From the NCBI RefSeq assembly GCF_000337735.1, contig NZ_AOHX01000037.1:1-64000 (forward strand): a stretch of 64,000 nt of DNA, given 5' to 3'. This document shows, piece by piece, positions 46,342-53,897 of this stretch. How positions within the stretch are numbered: position 1 is the first letter of the stretch; each line of letters starts with the position of its first letter. The DNA is from Natronorubrum sulfidifaciens JCM 14089 (lineage in GTDB: Archaea; Halobacteriota; Halobacteria; Halobacteriales; Natrialbaceae). The translations under genes and the position numbers were made by a program. The notes under the pieces were generated by a model. The model searched no databases and had not been told where the DNA came from. It saw only the letters and a list, made by a program, of their open reading frames with translations.

Positions 46342-46635
46342 TTACTCCGCGCAGCAGGCGTCTTTTTTCGGGGACTCGTCGACGCCGTTACCGTCGGCCG
46401 CGACCGGTTCCTCGAGTCGATAGAGACTCTGTCGAGCGTCCGCAAAGTAGATGTCCTCGTCGACCATTCCGATCCCTTCGAGGCGCTCGAGTGCGTATCG
46501 GACGGTCCGAGCCGACAGCATCGATTCTTCGACGATCTGCTTCTGGGTCAACGGCCCATCGTACTCGAGAACCTTGAAGACGAGTTTGGCGCTCGGTGGC
46601 AAGTCTTCGATGTCCTCCCCGTCGGTCTCTGCCAT
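46342..46635 (-). CDS. winged helix-turn-helix regulator with C-terminal Cys pair
   Basis: The protein has 97 residues. A MarR/TrmB-like wing-helix domain (about 10-70) includes LTQKQIVEESMLSARTVRYA as recognition helices and LERLEGIGMVDEDIYF. The tail ends in KKDACCAE, a Cys-Cys pair that could sense metal or redox state. The ATG at 46635 has CTTTTATG at 46661-46668 about 30 bases upstream; the 54-codon extension is rejected. Targets are unknown. Confidence 0.8.
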   Translation of the reverse strand: MAETDGEDIEDLPPSAKLVFKVLEYDGPLTQKQIVEESMLSARTVRYALERLEGIGMVDEDIYFADARQSLYRLEEPVAADGNGVDESPKKDACCAE

Positions 46636-46936
46636 ACTACTGATCGAACAGTCCCAGCGGCATAAAAGTTGAGCCTTACGAGGGAACGTCGACATGATAC
46701 ATTCCAAGAGAATATGGATAGAAAATTGGTGAGAGATCGTGTATCTGTGGGCATATCGGAACCTGACTTGGTAGTCAGGTACTGGAAGATTCTGCATCGA
46801 TCGAGATGGAGTATACGGTCTGTTGCAGTCACTGCCCGCGGTTCACCGACGCCACCGCCCGTGTTCGGCGGCGGCGATCGAACCGCTGACTCAAAGCGGT
46901 TTGAAACGGCGGTGACGGACTCGCAGCGCCCGGCGT
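46636..46936. other. intergenic with one strong hairpin (46761-46780)
   Basis: There is no gene here. The 8-bp stem ACCTGACT/AGTCAGGT around TGGT at 46761-46780 could be a terminator or operator for the DUF5305 unit or the wHTH gene. The wHTH TATA box lies at 46661-46668. Confidence 0.5.
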
Positions 46937-48115
46937 CTAGAGCTGTTTCCAGACGTCTTCGTCGTCTTCGAACCCGTCTTCGGCGGGGTCCGCGAACTCG
47001 TCTTCACCGTCGAACTCGAGTTCGTCTGGCGAAAAGGCCGGCGTATCGTCCGGCGGCTGTGACTGCTTTGTGAGGTTCAGTTCCGGCCAGGCGGTCTCTT
47101 CCCAGAGCCCACGGTCGCTGTAGTAGTAGACCACGTCGTCGGTGACGACGGCAAACAGGCCGCGCTGGCGGTCGTTGACGACCCGTTCGTTCGTGTCGAT
47201 CGCGACGTCGACGACGTCCTCTAAGGTGTCGAGCGAGATGTGGTAGTCGCCGACCCACATCGGAATGGAGCCACGCGAAATCCACTCGGCGTACCGTTTT
47301 TCGTGGACGGCACGCCGGGCAGCGTCCTCATCGACCGGCGCTCGTCGAGCGACGAACGCGGCACCCACAATAGAGAGCGTTCCCAGCAGGGAGAGCCCAG
47401 CGATGGTCCCGAGACTCCGCGATTCGGTCGTCTGTGCCGTCCCCACCTGATAGGTGTGTTCGTCCGCCGTTGCCAGTGACTCTGCAAGCCAGTATGCGTC
47501 GTCGGTTACGTGAAACGCCGTCGACGCCTGCTGTGTGCCCTGTGTTCTGCTGGTGTCGTACTCGGCTCGGAACTCTACCTCGAGGTCGACGGAGCCGATG
47601 CCGGACAGTTCACGCTCTAACTGGCGCTGGCGGTCGCGGTAGGATTCGACATCGATGGTCGCCGTCGACGCCGCGATACCGTTCTCGACGGCCGGCGACT
47701 CGTCGATCACGGTGTGGGTCTCGTTCCAGAACGGGTCGCCGTCTCTGACCGCTTCGAACCGGAACACCAGTTCGTGGCTCACGGCCGCGTCGTCGATCGG
47801 TGTGTTGGTCTCTTCGTTTACCAGCCTCGTCTCGGGCTCGAGCGTCAACTCCGGGGTGGCGTTGAGCGCGTAGACACGGCTGTTCTCGAGGCGCTCTCCC
47901 TCGCTCCAGAGTTCACCGTCTCGAACGACGACGGCACTCGTCTGGACATCGCTCTCGACGCGGTCGTCGCCGTACTGGGTGGTCGTCTCCGTGGTCGGAT
48001 TCGCGACGGCCCACCCCGTCGCGACGAGTGCGAGGGCACCGATGACGACCAGCGCGATCGCCACCAGACGACCGTACTGGGCGAGCACTAACTCGAGACG
48101 CGGATTATCGATCAC
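46937..48115 (-). CDS. DUF5305 membrane protein
   Basis: The protein has 392 residues. One N-terminal membrane helix (about 15-38) leads to a beta-rich outer domain (40-235), with a second helix at about 238-260. A basic and then acidic cytoplasmic tail ends in DEDVWKQL. The beta domain includes TTQYGDDRVESDVQTSAVV and a FHVTDDAYWLAE segment. I match it from memory to DUF5305, often encoded beside signal peptidases in haloarchaea, as here. A role in assembling or anchoring surface proteins is inferred. Confidence 0.82.
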   Translation of the reverse strand: MIDNPRLELVLAQYGRLVAIALVVIGALALVATGWAVANPTTETTTQYGDDRVESDVQTSAVVVRDGELWSEGERLENSRVYALNATPELTLEPETRLVNEETNTPIDDAAVSHELVFRFEAVRDGDPFWNETHTVIDESPAVENGIAASTATIDVESYRDRQRQLERELSGIGSVDLEVEFRAEYDTSRTQGTQQASTAFHVTDDAYWLAESLATADEHTYQVGTAQTTESRSLGTIAGLSLLGTLSIVGAAFVARRAPVDEDAARRAVHEKRYAEWISRGSIPMWVGDYHISLDTLEDVVDVAIDTNERVVNDRQRGLFAVVTDDVVYYYSDRGLWEETAWPELNLTKQSQPPDDTPAFSPDELEFDGEDEFADPAEDGFEDDEDVWKQL

Positions 48116-48268
48116 AGTTTGAACACCCTTCAGGACCGGATATCACAGTTCTCTCCCCACCGTTTTCTCCCCGACCCGCCCCAACGGATCGGCTGGCGGA
48201 CGCGCATGCGTACATTCACTTTTTGCAACCACTATAACGATGTCGGCCACCGCGACTCGACCCGACAG

Positions 48269-49438
48269 TCACAGCCACTTCCGGAGCTTTCGCTTGAGGC
48301 GAGTCGACAGCGGGACGTGCCTGCCAGCGGACCGCAGTCGCAAGTCACCGCGACCGAACACGACGAGGACGATCGTGACAGCAACCCCGACGATAACGCC
48401 GTTGACGGCGGCGATCGCGACAAGCGGGTGGAGTCCGTGCAGCCAGACCAGAAGCGACGGCGGTAACACCGCGAGATAGCGGTGCTCACTGACGTGGCGG
48501 GTGTACTCGCCGGTCGTCTCGGGAGCCGTCAGTGAGACCGTCGTCTCCCCGCTCGAGCGAAGCCCGACTGTCTGCCAGGGCGGGTCCGTCTCAACGTTGT
48601 TACTTCTGGCTTCGTGGACGACCACGATGGGGAGATAGCCCGCGTTGTCGATCGTCCGGGTGAGTTCGCCCGTCTCGCCGGGGGCGAGTATCTGCGGGTT
48701 GTCCTCGGGCGTCTCGGTACTCACGACTTCGTACTCGGTGGTCCCCGACGGGACGACCATCGCCGCGGTCGCAAACGTCACGAACACGAGCAAGACGAGC
48801 CCGAGCGTCGTCCAGAACGCGAGGACGTTCTCTCGAGAGCGCGAGCGTTTCTTTTCGCGTCGTGCAGGGCCGATTCGCTCGAGGAGCACGCCGAAGCCGA
48901 GCAGGGCAACGCCGACGGCGACCAGCAGCGAGCCGATCCCCTCCGAGTCGGGCGACGTTGTCAGCCCGAGAACCGAGCCGATCGTCCCAGCGGCTGCCGC
49001 CGCAGTGTTTTGGACGCCCATGATCGCCGTCCCGAGGTGGGGAATCGTGACGACCTCGCCGTTTACCTGCCACGCTTTGGCGACGATCTGGCCGTCCGTG
49101 ACGTGGGGCTCGCCGCCGTCCTGATCGGTAAACGGGTTGGCGTCGCCTTTCGTGACGTACCCCTCACTGGTTTCCCCGACAACCCGATGGGTCGTCAGCC
49201 CGCCGCCATGAAGCTCTCGCGCCTCGAAGACGACCACGTCGCCGTCTGTGACCGACCCCGTGACGGCGCTCGGAATCGCGACGAAGCCGTCGCCGGCGTC
49301 CATCGTCGGCTCCATACTGCCCGTCGCGACGTAGCCCAGCAAAATCGGCTGTCCCAGTAGCTGGCCGACCAACAACAACACGATCGCGAGTGCGACGACG
49401 ACACCGAGCGCTCGCTTGAGGAGCGTCGTCGACGTCAT
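48269..49438 (-). CDS. SipW-like (ER-type) signal peptidase I
   Basis: This membrane serine protease has 389 residues. Ser41 lies in GYVATGSMEPTM and His84 in GLTTHRVVGE, with Asp99 in TKGDANPF, the Ser-His-Asp set of ER-type signal peptidases. Two further helices and a C-terminal beta-rich region (about 235-330) with a last helix are extra to the core. Its position among DUF1102 and DUF5305 genes suggests a dedicated peptidase for the proteins encoded around it, as SipW is for TasA in Bacillus. Confidence 0.88.
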   Translation of the reverse strand: MTSTTLLKRALGVVVALAIVLLLVGQLLGQPILLGYVATGSMEPTMDAGDGFVAIPSAVTGSVTDGDVVVFEARELHGGGLTTHRVVGETSEGYVTKGDANPFTDQDGGEPHVTDGQIVAKAWQVNGEVVTIPHLGTAIMGVQNTAAAAAGTIGSVLGLTTSPDSEGIGSLLVAVGVALLGFGVLLERIGPARREKKRSRSRENVLAFWTTLGLVLLVFVTFATAAMVVPSGTTEYEVVSTETPEDNPQILAPGETGELTRTIDNAGYLPIVVVHEARSNNVETDPPWQTVGLRSSGETTVSLTAPETTGEYTRHVSEHRYLAVLPPSLLVWLHGLHPLVAIAAVNGVIVGVAVTIVLVVFGRGDLRLRSAGRHVPLSTRLKRKLRKWL

Positions 49439-49544
49439 TGGCTCGTCTTGCGGACGTTCATGAACACCAGACTATTCAATCAGACAGATATTCGGGATCG
49501 AACACCTTAAACGCCCCGTGGAGCCCTCGAGTCGCTGCGCCGTC

Positions 49545-50687
49545 TTAGCTCGAGACGAACGCCCAGCGGCGGTTCGCCGCGGCCGCCAAGAACAGGAACC
49601 CGGCCGCCATCGGCGGGGCGAGCGCTGCCGTCGTCGCCGCCGAAAGTTCGCGGTCCTGAATCGAGGTCGCCGTCGCCTCCGAGACGGTGACCGTTCCCGA
49701 ATCGACGCCACTGACGGCGATCGAATACGTTCCCGGCTCATCGAACCGGTGGTCGAACGTCACCGTCCGCTCTGAGTTCGGCTCGATCGTCACCGTTCGC
49801 GTGTCGACGACGATTCCGTCGACGGCAAGCTCGAGGGTGCGCTCGACTTGACTCTCCGTCGGGTTCGACACCGTCGCCTCGACCGTCGTCGTCTCGCCCG
49901 CGGTGAGTTCGCTGTCGGCAACCGAGACATCGAGCACGTCGATCGGCGGCCCCTCGACGCTGACCGCGGTGGTCTGTCCGTCGACGCCGATCTCGTACGT
50001 GCCGGGCCACTGGAGCTCCCGTTCGAAGATCACCGAGGTCGTCTCGCCGGGACCGATTTCGAACTGCGTGGTGTCGACGACGACGCCGTCGACGGTCAGC
50101 GTGGCCGTCCGCTGTCTCGGCAACACGGCATCGTTCCGATAGGTCGCGTTCACCGTCACCGAGTCGCCCGTCTCGACGGTCGTCGCATCGAGTTCGACGG
50201 ACTCGAGTTCGACATCGGTCGGCTCGTCGTCTTCGTCGTCATCCTCCTCGTCGGCCTCGTACCGGACGTGAACCGTGAACGTCTCGGTGCCGCTTTCGGC
50301 GAGATGCGTATCGACCGCCACACCGATGCTCGTCGTTTGGCCGGCCGTTGGCTCGAGTGGGTTCGACGCCGAGACAGTCGCTGAACGGTCGCCATCCGCG
50401 TAGAACTCGAGGCCGTCGACCTCGTTTTCGATCCAGATGTCTTCGACGGCGTTGTCGTTGACAGCGATCGTGAAGACCTCATCTGCGTGTGTGATCGCAC
50501 GGTCGTTGAGTTTCTCGAGATCGAGTCGGAGCTCGCCGTCTTCGATTGTGGTGTAGGAAGAGGTTGGCTCGAGGACGACGTCGTCGGCTGCCGTGTCTTC
50601 ACCCACCGTGATCGCGACTGTTGGGACTGCCAACGCGAGGAGAAAGCAGGCTGCGGCGGCAGTGAGCAGGATCTTGGTGGATGGCAT
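49545..50687 (-). CDS. secreted protein with DUF1102-like domain and two CARDB-type domains
   Basis: This exported protein of 380 residues has a Sec-type signal peptide (about 1-25, ending in VPTVA). A DUF1102-like beta domain (30-145) contains FTIAVNDNAVEDIWIENEVD and GLEFYADGDRSATVS. Two repeated Ig-like CARDB units follow (about 155-245 and 250-335), each with TVEATVSNPTES-type strands. A C-terminal hydrophobic segment near 355-375 may anchor it. It is encoded between the DUF1102 gene and the signal peptidase gene. Confidence 0.8.
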   Translation of the reverse strand: MPSTKILLTAAAACFLLALAVPTVAITVGEDTAADDVVLEPTSSYTTIEDGELRLDLEKLNDRAITHADEVFTIAVNDNAVEDIWIENEVDGLEFYADGDRSATVSASNPLEPTAGQTTSIGVAVDTHLAESGTETFTVHVRYEADEEDDDEDDEPTDVELESVELDATTVETGDSVTVNATYRNDAVLPRQRTATLTVDGVVVDTTQFEIGPGETTSVIFERELQWPGTYEIGVDGQTTAVSVEGPPIDVLDVSVADSELTAGETTTVEATVSNPTESQVERTLELAVDGIVVDTRTVTIEPNSERTVTFDHRFDEPGTYSIAVSGVDSGTVTVSEATATSIQDRELSAATTAALAPPMAAGFLFLAAAANRRWAFVSS

Positions 50688-50749
50688 TCCATATTTTGAT
50701 ACGTGATATTCTCGTCTATACCGACCTATCGTCGGGAGAATCCGACGAT

Positions 50750-51343
50750 CTATGCTTCGACTTCGTTAGCCTCGATAGTAATGTCCTCACTGACACTCTC
50801 TCCATCACTGATATCGCCGTCAGTCGTAATAGTAACATCGTACACGACTGACTCTTCCGCTCCCGAAGCTAGGTTGTTATCATCTCCACTGAGGTCTTCG
50901 CCGCTAATGTTTGTATGGGCAGGCCCCCCATCTTCGAAATTGCTCTCATCAATTTCCGCGTGGTTGTCGTTCACCGTGAAATCGAGAGTCACGTCGTTTC
51001 CGTCATCACTGATCGTAATTTCACTATCAGAGAGACCAGTGATACCGACATTATTCGTGCCCTGGTTTGTGATTGCCACCATCCCATCGAAGGTGGTTGT
51101 TGCGTTGATGTTCAGCCCCTCTGCCTCAGTAAATTCCGTCAGATCGATCTCTGCCACGTCGTTGTCGCCGGCATAGTTTTCATTAACTTCGATCGCGAGC
51201 AGTGCGTCAGTGTCGTCAGACACTTGAATACTCACCGTCCGATCCGCACTCACACTACTGAACGCACCCGTCCCCAGCGCAGCTCCGCCGCCCGCGACGA
51301 TCGTTCCCAGTCCAACTAACACATTTCGTCGGTTCATGCTCAT
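50750..51343 (-). CDS. Tat-exported DUF1102 protein
   Basis: The protein has 197 residues. The Tat signal MSMNRRNVLVGLGTIVAGGG includes the RR pair, and mature sequence begins around FSSVSADRTVSIQ. The remainder is a beta-rich DUF1102 domain, very acidic and Asn/Gly-rich. ADRTVSIQVSDDTDALLAIE is the strand shared with two other proteins here. DNA is richer in AT than its neighbours. It could be a major fibre or surface-layer accessory subunit processed by the signal peptidase encoded two genes downstream. Confidence 0.82.
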   Translation of the reverse strand: MSMNRRNVLVGLGTIVAGGGAALGTGAFSSVSADRTVSIQVSDDTDALLAIEVNENYAGDNDVAEIDLTEFTEAEGLNINATTTFDGMVAITNQGTNNVGITGLSDSEITISDDGNDVTLDFTVNDNHAEIDESNFEDGGPAHTNISGEDLSGDDNNLASGAEESVVYDVTITTDGDISDGESVSEDITIEANEVEA

Positions 51344-51828
51344 GATTGTAGTCTCCATGTAGCCACGTCGCCTCCAACGGCGAGGGGCGGAACGCGGCTC
51401 TTACTCATCCCTTGGAACCCCACCCACTTTGTATTGAGTATCGAGACTCTGTTCAGGCTTGATAATACCTGCTGCAGCGACACCGCAATCCGCTTCAAGC
51501 CCGGCCTGAACGCCCGAAATCGGCCGTCTCGAGCATTTGGATTGCTGCCAGTTCACACAACCTCGAGTGACACGACACCTCGAGACACCCGAAAACTGTC
51601 GACACCTGTCGTGTCTGGGGTAGTCGCCGACACTCGAGACAGCGAATCGACGCCGATCTCACCGCACAGCGATTCGAGGGCAATTGACAGATGATATTCC
51701 ATGACAGTACAGTGTACTTATGTATTCTCGACCCGTAGCTATCATACGGATACAGGTGCTCGAGACGGCGAAATTGTGCCAATTCGTAACATCTGTGTCG
51801 GGGTTGTCACAGTACACAGTATTCCAAT
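51344..51828. other. 485-bp divergent intergenic region
   Basis: This gap separates the minus-strand DUF1102 gene from the plus-strand solenoid gene. It holds the palindrome at 51706-51718 and a TATA-like TTATG directly after it. A second CAGTACACAGTAT at about 51810-51822 lies just before the ATG at 51829. The short open frames here lack protein character. Confidence 0.5.
51706..51718. promoter_or_regulatory. palindromic operator AGTACA-G-TGTACT
   Basis: This perfect 13-bp inverted repeat is followed by TTATG. A near copy overlaps the TATA box of the wHTH gene at 52740-52752. One DNA-binding protein, probably encoded in the cluster, may control both. Confidence 0.5.
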
Positions 51829-52662
51829 ATGACACGTCCATTCACGGGTCTCGCGATCGTGTTCATCCTCCTCGGCGTGGTGGTCATGGCCGGGCCGACG
51901 TTCGGCTTCGCCACGATCGCCGCCGACCGTGGTGTGAGCGTCGCGACGGCCGACGACTCGAGTGCCTATCTCGGCCTCGAGGATCGCTCGGCGTCGGCGG
52001 CGATCGACTCGCCCGCGGAGTCGACGGTCGTCTACACCGTGACGGACAACTTTGGCGGGGCTGATCCGACTGCCGTCGATGCCTCGGTGGTTCGAATTAC
52101 CGACGACAACAGCGACCCGGTCACGTCGACGACGCTGTCGGCGACGGTCCAGCCCGGCAGCGAAGCCAATACGTTCGATGTTCACCTCGCGTGTACCGAC
52201 GCGACGTCGCTCGAGGGATCTTACCGCGTCCTGTTACAGTTCGTCGCGTCGGGCGACGGCTCGAGCGTGGACGCGACTCGAGAGACGGCCGCCCTCGTAC
52301 CCGTGGACTGTACTGCGGAGCCGGTCGTGATCACGGTCGATGAAGACGGCGATGTCACTGCCGGGGGCGACGTGACGGTCGACAATAACGTCGATGTCGG
52401 CGGCAGCATCAACAGCGGCGGATCGGTGACGGTCGACAACAACGCGAAGATCGGCGGCAACATCGTCGCACAAGGCGACATCACGATCCGGAACAACGCT
52501 GTCAGCGGCGATCTCATCGCTGGCGGGAACGTCGACATTCGGAACAACGCCGAAATCGACGGTGACGTCATGGCTTGCGGGACCGTCACTGTCGGAAACA
52601 ACGCGGTCGTCACCGGGACGATCCTCGAGAATCAGACTGACCTGCCCGGCATCCAGTGTTGA
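51829..52662 (+). CDS. exported protein: DUF1102-like N-terminus fused to a beta-solenoid
   Basis: The protein has 277 residues. A signal anchor (MTRPFTGLAIVFILLG, then VVVMAGPTFGF) is followed by AADRGVSVATADDSSAYLGL, the motif shared with the DUF1102 gene. The C-terminal part (about 178-266) is five repeats of roughly 18 residues with pattern G-x-V-T-V-x-N-N-A-x-I-G-G-x-I, like bactofilin or polymer-forming cytoskeletal solenoids. Outside the membrane this could form a stiff polymer. Confidence 0.78.
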   Translation: MTRPFTGLAIVFILLGVVVMAGPTFGFATIAADRGVSVATADDSSAYLGLEDRSASAAIDSPAESTVVYTVTDNFGGADPTAVDASVVRITDDNSDPVTSTTLSATVQPGSEANTFDVHLACTDATSLEGSYRVLLQFVASGDGSSVDATRETAALVPVDCTAEPVVITVDEDGDVTAGGDVTVDNNVDVGGSINSGGSVTVDNNAKIGGNIVAQGDITIRNNAVSGDLIAGGNVDIRNNAEIDGDVMACGTVTVGNNAVVTGTILENQTDLPGIQC

Positions 52663-52739
52663 CGCTGTTATCCGTATGTTGGGTGGCTGTCGAACCGATC
52701 CCGTGCCGTGCTTAAGTACGATTCCCACGAGTTCGTGAT

Positions 52740-52752
52740 AGTACAGTATACT
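52740..52752. promoter_or_regulatory. operator-like palindrome over the wHTH promoter
   Basis: AGTACA-G-TATACT has one mismatch to the palindrome at 51706-51718. It overlaps the TATA box (TATACTTAT, 52748-52756) of the gene starting at 52792. Binding would block TBP, suggesting repression, perhaps self-repression. Confidence 0.5.
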
Positions 52753-52791
52753 TATTGGTTGTGAGTCCCTTAGTTCTAGACAGACACTGAA

Positions 52792-53334
52792 ATGGCGACA
52801 CAGGTAGCAACTCGGTCAGATCCTGATCAAGGGGAAATCTTCGATCTGCTGAGCAATCACCGTCGTCGCTATGCGATCCACTACTGCAAACGTGAGGGCG
52901 AGCCCGTCGAACTCGGCGACCTCGCCGAACACGTCGCTGCGTGGGAACTCGACAAAGAGATCGACGAGTTGACCTCGGCCGAACGCAAGCGCGTCTACAC
53001 GTCGTTACAACAGACGCACCTGCCGACGCTCGAGCGCGCCGACATGATCGAGTTCGACAATCGAACGATTGCGCTGACCGACCACGCCGCGGAGTTAGAC
53101 GTCTATCTCGACGTCGTGCCGGCGAACTCGATTCCGTGGGGACTGTACTATCTCGGGCTGGCTGTGCTAGGTTCGGTCGTGATGGCTGGGTTGTGGCTCG
53201 AGTGGGTGCCGACGGGGACGGTCCCCGAACTCGGCTGGGCAACGCTGGTGTTCGCGCTGTTTGCGGTCTCGGCAGTCGTCCACGTCGCACAGAGCCGACG
53301 GATGCGATTGGGGGAAATGGAGAAACCACCGTAA
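52792..53334 (+). CDS. winged-helix DUF7344-type protein with two membrane helices
   Basis: The protein has 180 residues. The N-terminal winged helix has FDLLSNHRRRYAIHYC, LGDLAEHVAAWELDKEID and KRVYTSLQQTHLPTLERADM, like the haloarchaeal DUF7344 domain. Two membrane helices follow (about 112-132 and 142-162), then a short basic tail. A membrane-tethered transcription regulator would link surface state to gene expression. It lies between two exported-protein genes and ends two bases before the next one. Confidence 0.8.
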   Translation: MATQVATRSDPDQGEIFDLLSNHRRRYAIHYCKREGEPVELGDLAEHVAAWELDKEIDELTSAERKRVYTSLQQTHLPTLERADMIEFDNRTIALTDHAAELDVYLDVVPANSIPWGLYYLGLAVLGSVVMAGLWLEWVPTGTVPELGWATLVFALFAVSAVVHVAQSRRMRLGEMEKPP

Positions 53335-53336
53335 AC

Positions 53337-53897
53337 ATGGATACACTTGGCAAAATCGCGGTAGTGTTTATTATTTTGGGAGCCGTGCTTCTCGCCGGGC
53401 CAGTATACGGATTCACGTCGATAGCATCTGAACGAGGAGTGCAAGTGAGTACTGCCGAGGGAACAAGTGCGTACCTTGGAATGGAATCTACGGATAATAG
53501 TGTCAACGGCGTAGATGGAACTGCAGTCGCGATTCTACACAATAATCTTGAGTCGGATATGACTTTCACTGACATCAGTATTGATATCACCGGAGACAAT
53601 AATCTACTTGACGAGTCCAATACCCCCACCGAGATTGGAGCGGGAAATAACAAGACAGTTGATGTTGTATGTGAAGAAACAGTGGGTGGGCCACCAGATG
53701 GTGCCAGTGGGGTGGCAAATATCCACATCACTGTTGAACAGGCAGACGCTAACGGAGTAACAATTACAGATGCTTCTCTTAAGTTCGACTCTGGTTACGA
53801 CTGTCACCAAAGTGCTGATGACGAAAACCAAGACGAAAGTGGGGAGGAATGTGATGGCCCACCATGGGGACAAGGTGGGAAGCCGGATAACTGCTAA
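53337..53897 (+). CDS. exported DUF1102-like protein, AT-rich gene
   Basis: This protein of 186 residues is a paralogue of the solenoid protein's N-terminus. Its signal anchor MDTLGKIAVVFIILGAVLLA is followed by GFTSIASERGVQVSTAEGTS, then AYLGME. The rest is a beta-rich Asn/Asp domain with a Cys-containing tail (GYDCHQ, and CDGPPWGQGGKPDNC at the end). It starts three bases after the wHTH gene and is co-transcribed with it. The gene is clearly AT-richer than its neighbours, which suggests exchange or rapid change. Confidence 0.75.
   Translation: MDTLGKIAVVFIILGAVLLAGPVYGFTSIASERGVQVSTAEGTSAYLGMESTDNSVNGVDGTAVAILHNNLESDMTFTDISIDITGDNNLLDESNTPTEIGAGNNKTVDVVCEETVGGPPDGASGVANIHITVEQADANGVTITDASLKFDSGYDCHQSADDENQDESGEECDGPPWGQGGKPDNC

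Follow-up and report, generated by a model that had tools for sequence, protein, structure and literature searches.

Which surface structure is built by a gene cluster that places an endoplasmic reticulum (ER)-type signal peptidase next to several exported proteins with a common mature N-terminus? This question is raised by positions 46937-53897 of a 64,000 nt stretch of Natronorubrum sulfidifaciens JCM 14089 (assembly GCF_000337735.1, contig NZ_AOHX01000037.1, positions 1-64,000 of the forward strand; in the following the window), which is part of a haloarchaeal genome of about 3.46 Mb. An earlier reading of the sequence, here called the original prediction, had proposed a fibre or coat with SipW-like processing, and all of its genes were found at the positions it gave. 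Our analysis indicates that the locus is very probably a Tat-fimbriae (tafi) cluster of the Natrinema type from a Natronorubrum-like archaeon, including the assembly scheme described below. The system itself is already known and not new; following the account in PMC12687288, tafi were first described in 2025. The loci nearest to the window cluster belong to Natronorubrum, with a peptidase identity of 91-92%.

The genes are organized in two divergent units. The minus-strand run of four encodes, in order of transcription, a protein with a twin-arginine translocation (Tat) signal, termed the Tat protein (50750-51358), a CARDB protein (49545-50687), an S26B signal peptidase (48269-49438) and a DUF5305 membrane protein (46937-48115). 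The plus-strand unit encodes a solenoid protein (51829-52662), a DUF7344 protein (52792-53334) and a secreted protein from an AT-rich gene (53337-53897), which begins 2 bp after the DUF7344 gene. As had been noted before, the region at about 53 kb has the highest AT content anywhere in the window (GC 0.522). The peptidase and the DUF5305 protein had been placed between the three proteins that share the N-terminal motif. Instead, both lie in the minus-strand run together with the CARDB and Tat proteins, and the two other motif proteins flank the DUF7344 gene on the plus strand.

The Tat protein has the twin-arginine signal MNRRNVLVGLGTIVAGGGAALGTG, which is followed by the AF(S/T)(S/T)V..DR pattern of tafi subunits, and a mature part encoded by 50750-51265. 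A phmmer search against the PDB identified entry 9p0a, chain name 'Pilin', with 2.7e-20, and a profile search gave 2.6e-33 for the same entry, which is titled 'Structure of Natrinema sp. J7-2 Tafi pilus'. 9p0a was also the top fold match of the Tat protein model (Foldseek E 2.5e-4, Z 8.4). An open reading frame in a genome of the same family matches residues 1-170 of 9p0a with 100% identity, and its locus shows the same arrangement as the window: NadE, a small membrane protein, a helix-turn-helix protein, DUF5305, the peptidase, CARDB, the pilin, DUF7344, a TafC-like protein, EMC6 and RLI. The Natrinema sp. J7-2 Tafi pilin of known structure has its positional orthologue in the Tat protein. 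Both pilins share the mature motif and an almost letter-for-letter identical Tat signal, whereas the identity of the mature pilins is only 27%. A further difference is a 902-residue DUF7289 gene (L063:9978-12686), which is located between the pilin and DUF7344 genes of the J7-2-like genome, at the place of the solenoid gene in the window. In the 9p0a chain 188 of 215 residues are modelled and the last one is residue 215, which puts the start of the model near residue 28, the F of AFSSV; residues 27-41 read AFSSVEADRTVSVAV. These lengths suggest that the signal has been removed and that the motif forms the N-terminus of the fibre subunit. A literature search for the paper on the J7-2 structure found none.

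Several observations concern related pilins and their neighbours. The DUF7289 protein of the J7-2-like genome shows a weak match to the type IV pilin N-terminus. In three orthologous pilins (L020:8039-8575, L022:8034-8579 and L029:8065-8610) the twin arginine is replaced by N-R-K, and export of these proteins may rely on Sec or on a less strict Tat motif. Some haloarchaeal genomes (G010, G100) contain 12-13 pilin-like matches, several of them in tandem. A second peptidase locus of Natronorubrum halalkaliphilum (L031:8642-13559) is diverged (49% identity) and is accompanied by DUF7344, DUF5305 and pilin-like genes of its own, which shows that tafi clusters occur as paralogous copies.

The shared motif was analyzed with the regular expression [FV][SATN][ST][VI]..[..]R in all six frames of the window. 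It matched exactly three times, in the three proteins for which the motif had been claimed: the Tat protein (AFSSVSADRTVSIQV, then ALLAIE), the solenoid protein (FATIAADRGVSVA, plus strand 51907-51945, then AYLGLE) and the AT-rich protein (FTSIASERGVQVS, plus strand 53412-53450, then AYLGME). A profile of the mature Tat family, searched against the whole genome, found only four places, all at the window locus. These are the Tat protein (positions 1-149, E 1.2e-31), the solenoid protein (positions 2-133, E 8.8e-8), the N-domain of the CARDB protein (positions 10-148, E 4.9e-5, with the first nine positions uncovered) and the AT-rich protein (positions 2-37, E 6.6e-4). Among 26 pilin orthologues A1, F2, A7 and R9 of the motif as well as D18, N52 and A55 are invariant. 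The pilin and TafC profiles align over the 28-residue N-terminus only (Prob 94.5), and beyond it the solenoid and AT-rich proteins have heads that scarcely match that of the pilin. The three motif proteins are thus not three equal subunits.

The models of the Tat and solenoid proteins did not show unrelated folds. Both are beta-sandwiches in which the motif is unplaced, with a mean predicted local distance difference test (pLDDT) score of 46 for residues 1-10 of the pilin and scores below 50 for residues 1-14 and 16-18 of the solenoid protein (overall pLDDT 79.5). In TasA of Bacillus subtilis the donor strand comprises residues 28-38 at the mature N-terminus and makes key contacts through F29 and I32, among others (PMC9674648). 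This F-x-x-(I/V) spacing equals that of AFSSV in the window. Because the motif is unplaced beside a sandwich, the 9p0a model starts near F28 and the spacing is TasA-like, donor-strand exchange is the likeliest mode of assembly, and we regard it as quite probable. The minus-strand stretch AFSSVSADRTVSI (51227-51265) is the proposed donor strand of the pilin.

Like the TasA-TapA-SipW system, the cluster has fibre genes adjoining a Ser-His S26B peptidase; unlike TasA, which has a Sec signal, the window pilin has a Tat signal. A relation to TasA/camelysin and DUF1102 at the level of sequence families was not supported, since the TasA/camelysin Pfam family had no match among the 26 pilins at E 0.05 and the pilin had no match in Pfam, DUF1102 (PF06510) included. 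Membership of the type IV pili was likewise not supported, since none of the motif proteins matched the archaeal Pfam family Pilin_N, which stands for the class III prepilin signal, and the pilin has a Tat-type signal. The bundling pili of Pyrobaculum (7ueg) and the threads of Sulfolobus (7pnb) are likewise donor-strand beta-sandwich fibres, but their sequence families differ from that of the window pilin. 7ueg was the second-best Foldseek match of the pilin model (E 0.042), and the Z-scores of 6.1 (7ueg) and 5.6 (7pnb) are not above the common range. The Sulfolobus thread subunit has a Sec signal (PMC9715654).

The peptidase matched TIGR02228, the archaeal signal peptidase I, with 3.3e-15 (56.3 bits, above the cut-off of 51.85). 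The match to SipW (NF046067; 2.7e-8, 33.6 bits) stayed below the cut-off of 190, so the enzyme is SipW-like and not SipW. Ser41, His84, Asp99 and Asp105 are invariant in 50 of 50 orthologues, and at the position of the histidine bacterial type I signal peptidases have a lysine. Judged from these residues, the window peptidase is an ER/SipW-type (S26B, Ser-His) enzyme. The enzyme extends beyond the 189 positions of the SipW model by a C-terminal region of some 200 residues, which lies between transmembrane (TM)-like stretches. A profile comparison of this region with the pilin and TafF domains yielded nothing above background. All of these peptidases have the additional C-terminal region (residues 190-389 in the window enzyme), in which Tyr321, Pro326, Pro338 and Arg367 are conserved.

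To assess the linkage of pilin and peptidase, 146 Halobacteriales genomes were scored for both genes. Both were present in 78 genomes and neither in 56; six had only the peptidase and six only the pilin (Fisher p 2e-26, without correction for phylogeny). Homologous loci do not routinely lack the peptidase: the distance to the pilin was at most 15 kb in 61 of the 73 genomes compared, with a median gap of 2.5 kb. A sample of 20 loci, drawn from many families, had a pilin-like gene close to the peptidase in about 16 cases, DUF5305 in 18 and DUF7344 in 13. Together with the solved orthologue of the Tat protein, these results uphold the proposal of a fibre locus with a SipW-like peptidase.

The CARDB protein consists of a signal, a pilin-like N-domain, two CARDB stretches (Pfam 4e-10) and a C-terminal TM-like stretch at residues 353-371. 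The original prediction had assigned it a DUF1102-like domain. The Pfam match to PF06510 (E 0.027, 15.1 bits) did not reach the gathering score of 22.2, but a pilin-like N-domain was recovered by profile comparison. An hhalign comparison of the pilin core with the CARDB N-domain gave Prob 95.6 and E 1.3e-8, with four control comparisons below 1%, and the N-domain of TafF matched the same domain with Prob 94 and E 1.2e-7. The donor motif was absent from all 18 CARDB-protein orthologues. Since this TafF-like protein combines a sandwich without a donor strand with a C-terminal membrane helix, it would accept the strand of the last pilin and anchor the fibre; we give this role of an acceptor-only membrane anchor somewhat better than even chances. 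The DUF5305 protein (Pfam 4e-44) has two TM-like stretches. Its ectodomain showed no similarity above background in profile comparisons with the pilin and TafF domains, which lends no support to DUF5305 as a pilin-like anchor. The CARDB protein is the likelier membrane anchor of the two.

The solenoid and AT-rich proteins both match the N-part of the NCBIfam family TafC (3.1e-8 and 3.8e-11). The solenoid protein comprises a signal without a twin arginine, the donor motif, an immunoglobulin (Ig)-like domain and a C-terminal bactofilin-like beta-solenoid (Pfam Bactofilin, PF04519; 3.3e-7, 30.9 bits over the gathering score of 27.9). The matches in a fold search with this protein were all common Ig/cadherin sandwiches (Z up to 8.0) and were uninformative. 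The AT-rich protein is a short second TafC-like protein with the donor motif, the N-domain and an acidic tail. Neither has a C-terminal TM-like stretch according to the TM scan. The twin-arginine signal is restricted to the pilin, and the two TafC-like proteins look Sec-exported. Only one of about 12 Natrialbaceae TafC-like signals contains the twin arginine, which is present in Haloarcula-type TafC, so the export of the TafC-like proteins seems to have moved to Sec here. The C-termini vary from LamG in the Haloarcula type to the bactofilin-like solenoid of the window and to longer solenoids elsewhere. A second TafC-like gene in the same genome (L046:7949-9682; G000:C51:15949-17682) encodes about five bactofilin repeats (1.6e-26) and is surrounded by genes for lipoproteins and large membrane proteins, with no pilin or S26B gene nearby. 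This locus is possibly a mobile element.

Taken together, these data are consistent with the following scheme. The pilin would leave the cell through the Tat pathway, and the dedicated S26B peptidase would cleave it just ahead of the AF motif. The freed N-terminal strand would enter the beta-sandwich of the next subunit by donor-strand complementation, and the CARDB protein would receive the strand of the last pilin and hold the fibre in the membrane. Because the TafC-like proteins combine a donor strand with a different head and lack a C-terminal membrane helix, they would plug the free acceptor at the opposite end and display a variable module, here the bactofilin-like solenoid. The chances that they act as a donor-only tip or nucleator are, in our estimate, slightly less than even. 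The complete picture of a three-piece fibre is tentative. It would consist of a pilin that is donor and acceptor, a membrane-anchored TafF/CARDB protein that only accepts, and a TafC protein that only donates and carries an exchangeable module (the extracellular bactofilin-like solenoid included). Pieces exported by Tat and by Sec would meet at one dedicated S26B peptidase, which frees the donor strand and thereby licenses assembly.

The two ends of the fibre could also be assigned the other way round within a tafi cluster: the TafC-like proteins would be base nucleators, as TapA is for TasA, the CARDB protein would cap or regulate the fibre and DUF5305 would anchor it. TapA, which has the donor strand of TasA and was proposed to give the first strand (PMC9674648), is a precedent, and the two TM-like stretches of DUF5305 and its presence near the peptidase in most sampled loci agree with an anchor. 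However, it is the CARDB protein that joins a pilin-like domain to a C-terminal TM-like stretch, and the variable display modules of the TafC-like proteins fit an end that faces outward. We therefore consider this assignment unlikely and favour the CARDB protein as anchor and the TafC-like proteins at the distal end.

Another explanation is suggested by the NCBIfam name 'TafE family fimbrial adapter protein': the Tat protein would be a minor adapter and another protein the main subunit. TafE is indeed its best family, with 4.8e-24 (85 of 155 bits) compared to 1.1e-13 (51.7 of 190 bits) for TafA, both under the equivalog cut-offs (TafA, TafC and TafE are NF052520, NF052521 and NF052522). After removal of the first 25 mature residues the Tat protein still resembled TafE (E 0.0046) and no longer TafA (E 3.7), and TafA was rejected as its identity. 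The J7-2 pilin behaved in the same way, with E 0.00036 for TafE and no resemblance to TafA. However, this protein forms the solved pilus, occupies the same genomic place and is itself TafE-like (1.1e-21, 77.3 of 155 bits, under the cut-off). Missing these cut-offs consequently bars the label of a TafA, TafC or TafE equivalog, but not that of a tafi subunit. Furthermore, there is no TafA in the window, and the whole-genome profile search found no further pilin-like gene beyond the locus. Among the Natrialbaceae loci compared, a TafA-like gene occurs only in Natronorubrum thiooxidans, which makes the single TafE-like Tat protein the most likely shaft subunit. An adapter role is accordingly very unlikely.

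The Tat-fimbriae (taf) of Haloarcula were described by Galeva et al. (iScience 2025, 28:111793), as summarized in PMC12687288; the existence of tafi and the claim of TafA as core are taken from this summary. For comparison we used genomes passing the NCBIfam Taf cut-offs, and these Haloarcula-type clusters pass them for TafA, TafC, TafE and TafF. They share with the window a homologous S26B peptidase (43-45% identity), DUF7344, a TafE-like Tat protein, the TafC-like N-domain and a TafF-like protein. In contrast to them, the window lacks TafA and has the CARDB protein in the place of TafF, and its TafC-like proteins, whose signals have no twin arginine, carry a solenoid or an acidic tail at the C-terminus instead of LamG. 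The genes for the S26B peptidase and DUF7344 may be the remaining taf genes of the Haloarcula-type clusters.

A coat or matrix in which the solenoid and AT-rich proteins polymerise by themselves outside the cell and the motif is a mere recognition site of the signal peptidase is the least probable explanation. In its favour, bactofilin domains polymerise in other organisms (PMC12364344), the motif lies directly at the cut site and the two TafC-like genes form a separate plus-strand unit. Against it, the orthologous Tat protein forms a pilus in 9p0a, the stretch common to the pilin and the TafC-like proteins extends about 28 residues beyond the cut site and exceeds the needs of cleavage, and the pilin and TafC-like genes remain together in most sampled loci.

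Some points weigh against the interpretation as a tafi cluster with the proposed scheme. The cluster is known in this organism from its genes alone, and all three window proteins that match Taf families do so under the NCBIfam cut-offs, TafC with 42.7 of 410 bits. The pilin model is weak (pLDDT 63.7), its similarity to TasA (8aur, Z 4.9) is within the range that the tool calls common, and a low-confidence N-terminus by itself is no proof of donor-strand exchange. The genome also encodes a separate general Sec11-type peptidase, and the cleavage of these signals by the S26B enzyme is deduced from linkage. The fibre end taken by the TafC-like proteins is likewise deduced, from what each protein has or lacks, and the longer weak match of the solenoid head to the pilin profile makes a donor-only role uncertain.

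Two candidate regulators were found. The DUF7344 protein (Pfam 1.2e-29), a predicted winged-helix protein with two C-terminal TM-like stretches in the TM scan, is a probable local regulator and has a copy with about 57% identity in the Haloarcula-type taf clusters. A further winged-helix gene (46342-46797) adjoins the cluster and is conserved alongside it across Natrialbaceae; its product may regulate the cluster genes.

To our knowledge, little is known about the assembly of tafi. The informative variation of the window cluster is found in its TafC- and TafF-like parts, and the presence or absence of the donor strand leads to testable roles as shaft, anchor and tip. In the Natrinema type, the pilus is built from a TafE-like protein, a family whose name as an adapter comes from the Haloarcula-type clusters. 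Across the Halobacteriales, inheritance of the pilin is almost always coupled to that of a dedicated SipW-like peptidase, a pattern that holds for about three quarters of the sampled genera.

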